Position numbers and translations under genes: made by a program
NCBI RefSeq assembly: GCF_004339245.1
Contig: NZ_SMGG01000003.1
Location: 213,106 to 277,105, forward strand
Length of the DNA stretch: 64,000 bases
From: Seleniivibrio woodruffii
Lineage (GTDB): Bacteria; Chrysiogenota; Deferribacteres; Deferribacterales; Geovibrionaceae
Reading direction: 5' to 3'
Shown here: positions 29,974 to 33,429 of the stretch, in pieces
Numbering within the stretch: position 1 is the stretch's first letter
How the letters are laid out: every line of letters starts with the position of its first letter
Notes under the pieces: model-generated
Told to the model about the DNA's origin: nothing
The model's input: only the letters and a program-made list of their open reading frames with translations
Databases searched by the model: none

Positions 29974-31026
29974 ATGGCCGACGAAAACAAGACCGAAGAC
30001 CCGACCGGTAAGCGGCTTTCAGATGCCGCTGCCGAAGGGAATATACCTAAAAGCCGTGAACTTGCCACCGCAATAATTCTGCTGGGCGGCGCTATCTTCA
30101 TGCATTTTTACGGCCCTTATTTTATGAAAGGCATGGGAAGGCTGATGCGTGAGATGCTCACCGTCAGAGACCACAACATCACAGTTGACAACCTGATGGC
30201 CATCCTTGTGTTCACGGTCAAAGAGGTCGGAATCATAGTGGCTCCGCTCATGGCACTTCTGCTGATAATATCCATCGCCGCAAACGTGATGCAGGTGGGT
30301 TTTGTTTTCACCCCCAAGGCTCTGGAGCTGAAATGGGACAGAATAAACCCCTTCACAGGCTTCGGCCGCTTCTTTTCAAAAAAGAGTCTGGTGGAGCTTT
30401 TTAAATCGATTTTTAAAATATTCATCATCGGCTGGTTCGCCTATTACATCGTAAAGGGCAAAATGGAGACCATAGTAACCCTCGCCGATGCGGACATAAT
30501 GGACATCATTGAGTTTTTCGGCGAGCTTATGTATGAACTGCTGTGGAAAATAGGCCTCATGACGCTGATAATGGCTCTTCTGGACTACATGTATGTGCGC
30601 TATCAGCACAAGCAGGACCTGAAGATGACCAAACAGGAGGTCAAGGACGAACATAAGCAGATGGAAGGGGATCCGCAGATCAAACAGCGGATACGCAAAG
30701 CTCAGAGAGACCTGGCCCGCCAGAGGATGATGGAGGACGTTCCCAAGGCCGACGTTGTGGTCACAAACCCGACCCACTATGCGGTAGCCCTCCGGTATAA
30801 CATCGGGCAGGACAGAGCACCCATTTGCCTTGCTAAAGGTCAGAGGCTTATGGCGCTTCGCATCCGGGAAGTTGCCAAGGAGAACGGCATACTTATCCAC
30901 GAGGATCCGCCCGTGGCACGCTCACTTTTCAAAACGGTTGACATAGGGGAGGAAATACCCGAAAATCTGTTCAAAGCAGTTGCGGAAATCCTTGCTCTGG
31001 TTGACAAGTTCAAGAACAGACTATAA
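29974..31026 (+). CDS. flhB: Flagellar export apparatus protein FlhB
   Basis: Export-gate membrane protein that switches substrate class from hook to filament. The 350 residues have the N-terminal EDPTGKRLSDAAAEGNIPKS signature, four membrane helices and a cytoplasmic C-domain. The self-cleavage motif NPTH (VVTNPTHYAVALRY) is near residue 265. It starts one base after the fliR stop. A 318-base gap with structured repeats separates it from flhA. Confidence 0.97.
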   Translation: MADENKTEDPTGKRLSDAAAEGNIPKSRELATAIILLGGAIFMHFYGPYFMKGMGRLMREMLTVRDHNITVDNLMAILVFTVKEVGIIVAPLMALLLIISIAANVMQVGFVFTPKALELKWDRINPFTGFGRFFSKKSLVELFKSIFKIFIIGWFAYYIVKGKMETIVTLADADIMDIIEFFGELMYELLWKIGLMTLIMALLDYMYVRYQHKQDLKMTKQEVKDEHKQMEGDPQIKQRIRKAQRDLARQRMMEDVPKADVVVTNPTHYAVALRYNIGQDRAPICLAKGQRLMALRIREVAKENGILIHEDPPVARSLFKTVDIGEEIPENLFKAVAEILALVDKFKNRL

Positions 31027-31041
31027 GAAAATCCACCCCGG

Positions 31042-31062
31042 CCCTCCTTTGACAAAGGAGGG
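31042..31062. repeat. Perfect 9-bp stem-loop after flhB
   Basis: CCCTCCTTT (31042-31050) and AAAGGAGGG (31054-31062) flank GAC. There is no T tract after it, so a terminator is unlikely. It is a C-rich/G-rich palindrome similar in kind to the one at 5690. Confidence 0.6.
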
Positions 31063-31085
31063 GGCGGTTTCAGCATAGCATTTAG

Positions 31086-31335
31086 ACTTGCTGTTTAGAT
31101 GCAAGTTATGCAAGGAAGATTCTGTAAGACGAGCAAAAGCATACGTTTAAGTATGTGTTGCGAGCGAACGGAATATGACGCCGCAGAACGAAGTATATAA
31201 ATCGGCAACACTTGCTGTTTAGATGCAAGCAGCACAAGGAAGGCTCTCCCGAGAGGGCTGCGAGCATACGCACAGGTATGTGAGCAGTTCCGAGGGAAAA
31301 CTGACGCAGTAATGCGCCGCATATAAACAGCAAAA
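31086..31335. repeat. Tandem pair of ~125-bp structured elements between flhB and flhA
   Basis: Two diverged copies, 31086-31209 and 31210-31335, both begin ACTTGCTGTTTAGATGCAAG. Copy 2 has 15-bp terminal inverted repeats (TTGCTGTTTAGATGC at 31212 and GCATATAAACAGCAA at 31319, one mismatch). Copy 1 has a decayed version. Each contains a central hairpin, CATAC-loop-GTATG, topped by a second stem that differs between copies but still pairs: GCAA/TTGC in copy 1 and CTGC/GCAG in copy 2. That is compensatory change. Short open frames across it are not convincing genes. It could be a miniature mobile element or a structured RNA region in the flagellar mRNA. Confidence 0.75.
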
Positions 31336-31344
31336 GGAAGGTAA

Positions 31345-33429
31345 ATGGCAGCAGCTTCTGAATATTTGAACATACTTAAGCAGAAGGAGATCTCGTTCTC
31401 AGTATTCTTCATGGCCATAATCGCCGTGATGATTCTGCCCGTGCCCCCTATTCTGCTCGACCTGCTGCTGACCCTCAGCGTGGCGCTGTCCATCATAATT
31501 CTGATGGTGGCGATACACGCCGACCAGCCCCTTAAGTTTTCAACGTTTCCGACAGTACTTCTGATAGTAACGCTGTTCAGGCTGTCGCTGAACGTTGCAA
31601 CCACAAGGGTTATTCTTCTCCACGGATATGAGGGAGAGGATGCGGCGGGTGAAGTTATCCGTGCTTTCGGACAGTTTGTTATCGGCGGGAACTATGCCGT
31701 CGGTATTATCATATTCCTGATACTTATCATCATCAACTTCATGGTTATCACAAAGGGTTCAACCCGTATCGCCGAAGTTGCAGCCAGATTCACACTGGAC
31801 GCCATGCCCGGAAAGCAGATGTCCATTGATGCCGACCTGAACGCAGGTCTCATAAACGAAGACGAAGCCAGACAGAAGCGTATCGACATCCAGAAGGAGG
31901 CCGACTACTACGGTTCTATGGATGGTGCGAGTAAATTTGTACGGGGCGATGCCGTTGCAGGACTTATCGTTACCGCCATCAACATCATCGCAGGTCTTGC
32001 CATCGGTGTTATCATGGGCGGAATGGAGATTATGGAGGCGGCCGAACGCTACACCATCCTCACCATAGGCGACGGTCTGGTATCTCAGATCCCATCTCTG
32101 ATAATATCCACAGCCGCAGGTCTTATCGTTTCCCGTGCCGGATCAGGCGGCGACCTGTCCAACCAGCTTTACGGTCAGCTTTTCAACAGCGCAAAAGTTA
32201 TGGGAATAACAGGCGGTATCCTGCTGTTCTTCGCTATTATACCCGGCATGCCCAAGATATCGTTCATTCTTCTGGGTGCTCTTTTCATATACCTCTCACG
32301 TCTGAGCAGAGTTCAGACACAGGAGAAAGAAAAAGAGCAGGAAAAGGCCGCAACGGAGAAAGAAAAAGCGCCTGTGGCCGAAGAGGACGAGGTAAAAAGT
32401 CTACTGGAGATGGATATTCTGGAGCTGGAGATCGGATTTGCGCTTATTCCCCTTGTTGATGCGGCGCAGGGCGGAACACTGCTTAACCGTATAAAGGCCA
32501 TTCGCCGTCAGCTCGCTCTGGAGATGGGCTTCATTGTTCCTCCGGTGCGTATCCGTGACAACCTTCAGCTGGATGCCAACGGCTACTCGGTCATGCTGAA
32601 AGGCGTTAAGATAAACAGCGGATTCATTTTCCCCGACAAGTTCCTGATAATGAACCCCGAAGGCAGTGTAGCCAATTTTGACGGAATCCCCACCAAGGAA
32701 CCCGCATACGGACTTGAGGCAAAATGGGTTGATGAACCCGTTAAGGATATGGCGGAGGTTGAGGGATGTACCATTGTCGACCCCTCGACTGTCATAGCAA
32801 CGCATCTCACCGAAATTATAAAGTCCAACGCATATGAACTGCTGGGCAGACAGGAGACTCAGGAACTTCTGGACAAACTGAAAGAGAAATATCCCAAACT
32901 GGTGGACGACGTTGTTCCGGGAATACTCGATCTGGGTACGGTGAACCGTGTGCTTCAGGCACTGCTCAAAGAGCGTGTATCCATCAGAAACCTCCAGACC
33001 ATAATGGAGATTCTGGCCACCTACGGAATGCAGAACAAACATCCCGACTTCCTCACAGAGCGGGTTCGAACCATACTTAAACGTCAGATAACCGAGAGCT
33101 TTGTTGCGGCGGACGGAAAACTGTATGTCTTCACCCTGCCCTCAAAGGTCGAACAGCTTCTTGCGGCCAGCCTCCAGAAAGGCGACGACGGTCAGGAGAT
33201 TGTCATCGACCCGTCTGTTGCGCAAAAAATTCTGTCTGCTATAATCGGCAAGTGCGACCAGTGCGTCGGCAAGGGACTGCCCCCCGTTCTAATCATCTCG
33301 CCGCCCATAAGGCTGCCCATGAGAAGATTTGTTGAAAAGTTTGTACACAACATCAATATTATGTCCCATAATGAGATAAGCGACAGCGTAAGGATCGAGA
33401 GCCTCGGAATGCTGGAGATTGAAATATGA
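31345..33429 (+). CDS. flhA: Flagellar export apparatus protein FlhA
   Basis: Central export-gate protein of 694 residues. The N-terminal membrane domain has about eight helices and the FHIPEP-type region (FPTVLLIVTLFRLSLNVATTR, GNYAVGIIIFLILIIINFMV, FTLDAMPGKQMSIDADLNAG). A charged linker follows (about 325-350), then the cytoplasmic domain that docks chaperone-substrate complexes. An AGGAAGG site immediately after the repeat elements precedes the ATG. It overlaps flhF by four bases. Confidence 0.98.
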   Translation: MAAASEYLNILKQKEISFSVFFMAIIAVMILPVPPILLDLLLTLSVALSIIILMVAIHADQPLKFSTFPTVLLIVTLFRLSLNVATTRVILLHGYEGEDAAGEVIRAFGQFVIGGNYAVGIIIFLILIIINFMVITKGSTRIAEVAARFTLDAMPGKQMSIDADLNAGLINEDEARQKRIDIQKEADYYGSMDGASKFVRGDAVAGLIVTAINIIAGLAIGVIMGGMEIMEAAERYTILTIGDGLVSQIPSLIISTAAGLIVSRAGSGGDLSNQLYGQLFNSAKVMGITGGILLFFAIIPGMPKISFILLGALFIYLSRLSRVQTQEKEKEQEKAATEKEKAPVAEEDEVKSLLEMDILELEIGFALIPLVDAAQGGTLLNRIKAIRRQLALEMGFIVPPVRIRDNLQLDANGYSVMLKGVKINSGFIFPDKFLIMNPEGSVANFDGIPTKEPAYGLEAKWVDEPVKDMAEVEGCTIVDPSTVIATHLTEIIKSNAYELLGRQETQELLDKLKEKYPKLVDDVVPGILDLGTVNRVLQALLKERVSIRNLQTIMEILATYGMQNKHPDFLTERVRTILKRQITESFVAADGKLYVFTLPSKVEQLLAASLQKGDDGQEIVIDPSVAQKILSAIIGKCDQCVGKGLPPVLIISPPIRLPMRRFVEKFVHNINIMSHNEISDSVRIESLGMLEIEI

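Follow-up and report, generated by a model that had tools for sequence, protein, structure and literature searches.

The spacer between flhB and flhA of Seleniivibrio woodruffii holds two head-to-tail copies of a hairpin repeat, which belongs to a large, previously unlabelled family that is not in Rfam. The copies of this family are dispersed, fold on the + strand, lie in one replication orientation and close to terminators, have had their cores replaced, form tandem arrays, decay, and are patchy in their range. The family probably consists of non-autonomous, structure-conserved mobile repeats that were inserted at replication forks beside terminator hairpins and whose cores were exchanged by conversion. 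Positions given below refer to the window, that is, the whole stretch of 64,000 nucleotides that was analysed.

The flhB–flhA spacer

The spacer measures 318 bp (flhB, 29974–31026; flhA, 31345–33429), which is unusual, since the two genes are about 13–60 nt apart in the congener G002 and in other genera of the family, much as a preliminary description of this DNA had supposed. The two copies that it had placed here are borne out (Table 1): the step between the repeats is 124 nt, and a 38-nt block, starting at 31086 and again at 31210, is 82% identical. The inverted termini of copy 2 are likewise as described, 15 nt long with one mismatch (31212–31226/31319–31333). A GCATAC/GTATGT hairpin is found in both copies, above a GCAA/TTGC stem in copy 1 and a CTGC/GCAG stem in copy 2. 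This had been taken for a stem that changed while still pairing; the pairing stands, but the difference is that between the old subfamilies A and B and not a change within the pair. Folding of the + strand gave z-scores of -3.8 for copy 1 and -5.7 for copy 2, each beating all 200 shuffles. The minus-strand ORF had no match in Pfam or NCBIfam; the resemblance of such translations to spurious proteins of other genomes, raised in the preliminary description, would suit a dispersed family. The stretch between flhB and copy 1 (31031–31075) carries a different kind of repeat, CCACCCCGGCCCTCCTTTGACAAAGGAGGGGGCGG.

Table 1. Features of the two hairpin repeats in the flhB–flhA spacer (window positions; CM, covariance model)
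Feature	Position	Strand	Evidence
Copy 1, subfamily A (GTTATGC/GCAGAAC stem)	31086..31209	+	repeat, fold, CM E 1.0e-22
Copy 2, subfamily B (GCAGCAC/GTAATGC stem)	31210..31335	+	repeat, fold, CM E 2.2e-26
Copy 1 left arm, same as copy 2 left arm despite cores of different subfamilies	31088..31097	+	
Copy 1 right arm TAAATCGGCAA, paired to copy 1 left arm with bulge	31198..31208	+	
Copy 2 left arm TTGCTGTTTA	31212..31221	+	
Copy 2 right arm TAAACAGCAA, perfect complement of copy 2 left arm	31324..31333	+	
Copy 1 conserved box AAGGAAG	31112..31118	+	
Copy 2 conserved box AAGGAAG	31236..31242	+	
Copy 2 conserved box CTGACGCAGTAATGCGCCGCATATAA	31301..31326	+	
Copy 1 apical hairpin GCATAC..GTATGT	31139..31156	+	
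Copy 2 apical hairpin GCATAC..GTATGT	31264..31281	+	

At the same site in relatives, single copies are found in G003 and G001, the latter with an additional right-hand remnant; G004 retains a remnant of 67 nt with an internal deletion, and G002 has no copy. The insertion probably predates the split of four Seleniivibrio species, and is present twice in the host. Since it has decayed in relatives, it appears to be dispensable, and the remnant in G004 and the lack of a copy in G002 make a dedicated function in flhBA unlikely. A role as a processing element separating flhB from flhA, as had been proposed, finds no support as the reason for its presence, given also that about 50 copies in the genus lie elsewhere, mostly antisense after terminators. 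Both genes run in the same direction as the element, so that the gene context is atypical, while the replication orientation is the same as elsewhere. Being co-oriented with the operon, these copies would be transcribed, and transcript cleavage or attenuation at the hairpin could arise as a side effect.

Distribution and fold of the family

The idea of a dispersed family is strongly supported. Twenty-six places in the host genome were matched by blastn, and a covariance model made from 24 copies found at least 50 in the host, 40 in G001, 47 in G003, at least 50 in G004 and 2 in G002; copy number is thus high in four of the five species of the genus, the host included. Some other Deferribacterota carry 1–35 copies and most carry none, and among the Clostridia copies occur in 19 of the 58 genomes from one order and, across the class, in 18 of 291, giving a patchy distribution across two phyla. 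Named records with the core pattern come from Seleniivibrio woodruffii, Seleniivibrio sp. and Deferribacteraceae UBA6793, and from the Clostridia Ruminiclostridium cellobioparum and one Gracilibacteraceae MAG. Searched with the window and the copies at gathering and relaxed thresholds, Rfam gave no match (the top sub-threshold match on a copy was the L20 leader, E 0.053). No copies were found in plasmid and phage collections, and viral contigs with the core pattern were rejected for want of a real covariance-model match. The open-access literature yielded no description of the repeat.

Subfamilies A, B, C and D have one architecture, a single long imperfect hairpin of about 105–130 nt. Among 47 copies, 93.3% of cells are paired, compared with 75.9% when shuffled, and double compensatory changes occur in 23 of 28 base pairs; for 27 Clostridial matches, all of them outside the model-building set, the values are 91.8% and 21 of 28. 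Pairing is favoured by the fit of these alignments to the model; slid controls fall to about 22–46%. Selection for structure, suspected from the window pair, is therefore strongly supported, and further copies and conserved structure were both found by the search of genome and relatives that had been suggested. In 41 of 44 copies it is the + strand that folds better. The outer 10-bp arms vary by locus and yet still pair, all ten pairs covarying when the arms are taken alone, and sequence constraint is confined to the inner boxes (AGATGCRAG, AAGGAAG and CTGACGC..GCATATA). A k-turn reading of AAGGAAG/CTGACGC was rejected, the geometry being unlike that of a canonical k-turn. GTTAGATGC looks like a simple site of the kind in integron attC, whose boxes are recognised by IntI, but the opposite box does not.

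Does such covariation reflect selection at all? Template switching between the arms of a quasi-palindrome could restore complementarity as a mutational artefact, and the arms are indeed locus-specific, with two-sided arm changes outnumbering one-sided ones (81 versus 32 arm pairs). However, mismatches and internal loops (AAGGAAG/CTGACG) persist in nearly all copies, G.T mispairs outnumber A.C (42 versus 24), and the stem covariation spans two phyla, all of which makes the artefact scarcely credible. A different caution applies to the core. Because en bloc exchange of a nested module retains pairing automatically, part of the core covariation can be had without base-by-base compensation, and even a strong covariation signal is no proof, in a repeat family, that the RNA has a cellular function. 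The arms, unlike the core, need base-by-base compensation or are made anew.

Replication orientation and neighbouring genes

At 40 of 41 independent loci, the + strand is on the C-rich replication strand (p about 4e-11). This count comprises contigs C5 and C6, the window and three G003 contigs, and rests on GC skew from genome parts, to which 2 of 6 sampled stretches of C3 and C4 do not conform. Of two other dispersed repeat types used as orientation controls, CCCTCCTTT is near balance and GCAGTGACG is less biased overall. To the right there is usually a gene directed at the element, with its stop 0–60 nt away; genes on the leading strand have their 3' end on this side at 30 of 36 loci, compared with 154 of 305 intergenic regions. 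Immediately to the right, 19 of 46 copies have a terminator-like A-tract and hairpin; a single copy has one immediately to the left, and the background is 3.6%. Most Seleniivibrio copies are antisense to the gene whose terminator precedes them, often to both neighbours. The early suggestion of a non-coding RNA, if read as an independent transcript with a promoter to itself, finds no backing here, as promoters are not enriched at the copies.

Repeats of the CCCTCCTTT/AAAGGAGGG type recur in the genome on both strands and may be the homoiteron-rich motif described in PMC7812874. A third dispersed repeat (GAGACTGC...TTCGCAGTGACGG) is often found immediately to the left of the element, e.g., in L012, L013, L021 and L024.

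Many Clostridial copies are sense within rRNA and tRNA operons: they either end 0–10 nt short of the 5' terminus of a mature 23S, 5S or tRNA molecule, or lie in a 16S leader. Those at L214, L216, L219, L221, L226, L239 and L240 are in 16S–23S or 23S–5S spacers and nearly touch the mature 5' ends, and tandem copies in a Gracilibacteraceae MAG (L083, 60–268) are flanked by two tRNA genes. No Seleniivibrio copy was seen inside an rRNA operon in the genome parts examined. Operons for rRNA and tRNA are usually on the leading strand; if these are, copies sense to stable RNAs lie on the opposite strand, and replication is thus not the sole rule.

The Clostridial positions, together with the strong + strand covariation and tandem GA and G.U features that suit RNA, would fit a functional RNA or RNA-processing element, its + strand RNA being kept for the sake of a working hairpin, such as one at which an RNase cuts rRNA and tRNA precursors and operon transcripts. 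We regard this as rather unlikely, given the antisense placement of most Seleniivibrio copies, the result for promoters, the limited share of Clostridial genomes with copies, and the decay or loss of the flhBA copy in relatives.

Core exchange, mobilisation and relation to known repeats

A mobile repeat is the best of the early readings. At orthologous loci of four species, compared by synteny over part of the genomes, some cores are identical (1.00) and others no more alike than random pairs (0.65); of 55 orthologous pairs, 29 have a core identity below 0.70, and these fall at 12 of the 19 loci. G001 and G003 agree at locus g1 in their flanks and in all ten arm pairs, but differ in the subfamily of the core (identity 0.60); loci g2 and h4 resemble g1. 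At locus g5, flank and arms differ as well, so that at such loci a fresh insertion into a hot spot is no less likely. Averaged over all replaced pairs, the arms are only a little more similar than those of unrelated loci, with 6.1 versus 5.3 of 10 positions alike and a p of 0.006 that assumes independence although the pairs are not independent, and pairs with core identity of at least 0.85 share their arms no more than others do.

Arrays with common arms but mixed cores include the window pair (A, B), G004:C10 (D, B, D), G001:C33 (C, B) and C5:83714–84086 (B, A, B). There are also homogeneous arrays of 3–4 units (L231 and L232, on G004:C16 and G004:C7), in which all units have the left arm and only the last has the right arm. 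Between G003 and G004, which are 87% identical, nearly all compared loci are filled in both, and new insertion must therefore be rare. No clean recent insertion with a target duplication was seen; the single empty site (G000, locus h2) has no target duplication, but it also lacks about 190 bp of DNA besides the element.

How, then, would the repeats have spread? By the preferred account, insertion would be into the single-stranded lagging-strand template beside a terminator hairpin, a target rule like that of bacterial-C group II introns, presumably aided by an enzyme now absent or unrecognised. Cores may later have spread among existing copies through conversion at the conserved boxes. A more specific version, which we offer tentatively, is a mobile hairpin recognised by its shape and not through the sequence of its ends, in both Deferribacterota and Clostridia, with a core that replaces other cores within locus-specific self-complementary arms in a replication-dependent manner, through an enzyme of unrecognised type.

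In about 1.25 Mb of stretches examined, there was neither a matching transposase nor an autonomous relative with a gene between a left and a right box. A resident Y1 transposase or reverse transcriptase as driver was rejected, because Y1_Tnp and RVT_1 genes are uncorrelated with copy number; the mobiliser would accordingly be unrecognised or lost. Elsewhere in the Deferribacterota, one 309-kb contig (G025:C2) has 17 equal-scoring Y1 transposase matches, which represent a recent IS200-like burst.

A derivative of IS200/IS605 or RAYT elements, recognised as a single-stranded DNA hairpin in the manner of REPINs, would fit the bias to one replication strand and a hairpin unit with compensatory changes (PMC3116915). 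It is nevertheless improbable: the observation that counts most directly against it is that Y1_Tnp (PF01797) is absent from G000, G001, G003, G004 and G028, and the repeat is a single long nested hairpin, at which no conserved flanking tetranucleotide was noticed. There is a similarly slim chance of a SINE-like bacterial retro-element, its + RNA made from copies in rRNA or tRNA operons and turned into cDNA by a reverse transcriptase like that of group II introns, primed at the terminator T-tract. The A-tract or terminator adjoining the right end, the sense copies in stable RNA operons, and the insertion of bacterial-C introns after terminators with a lagging-strand bias (PMC8919778) would suit it. 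On the other hand, RVT_1 (PF00078) is absent from G001, G003, G004 and G028, all of them high-copy (G000 has one), Rfam found no group II intron in the window or copies, and the Seleniivibrio genome parts examined showed no copy within an rRNA operon.

Returning to the non-autonomous mobile repeat, the family behaves like a MITE in being short, non-coding, dispersed and folded. It is not placed in any named family, because only the pairing of the arms, and not a conserved terminal inverted repeat sequence, is kept between copies, and because the known drivers are lacking. The suggestion of a miniature mobile element holds as the best reading, although conserved terminal inverted repeats, target duplication and a matching transposase, its usual marks, were not found. 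What is added is a large, cross-phylum set of structured repeats, missing from Rfam, with an exceptionally clear covariation signal. With ends that are kept only as pairs and cores swapped at fixed sites, the family is a natural test case for the spread of short repeats in which no transposase can be recognised, and for the way in which rRNA operons come to tolerate them.

Among known systems, bacterial-C (IIC) introns resemble the family in their position right after intrinsic terminators and in replication-strand bias (PMC8919778), whereas the hairpin repeat is about 125 nt long, has no RT gene and, by Rfam, no intron domains, and its fold-conserved strand is opposite to the terminator strand. 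REPINs mobilised by RAYT are likewise hairpin units with compensatory changes (PMC3116915), but consist of two inverted REPs, unlike the present family, whose high-copy genomes have no Y1/RAYT gene. Expansion segments of Clostridial 5S rRNA are hairpin inserts, and similar motifs are mentioned for intergenic regions and for rRNA leaders and spacers (PMC7812874); the motif there is described as homoiteron-rich. ERIC/IRU, RUP, BOX, NEMIS/Correia and YPAL are non-coding, dispersed intergenic repeats of about 100–170 bp with a stem-loop pairing 5' and 3' ends, and BOX repeats are modular (PMC2229807, PMC3049150). The hairpin family has size, fold and intergenic dispersal in common with ERIC/IRU and other MITE-like repeats. 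It differs from them in having terminal inverted repeats without a conserved sequence and in that no cognate IS was found, in a fold backed by covariation in two phyla and kept in one replication orientation, and in the swapping of cores within locus-specific arms.
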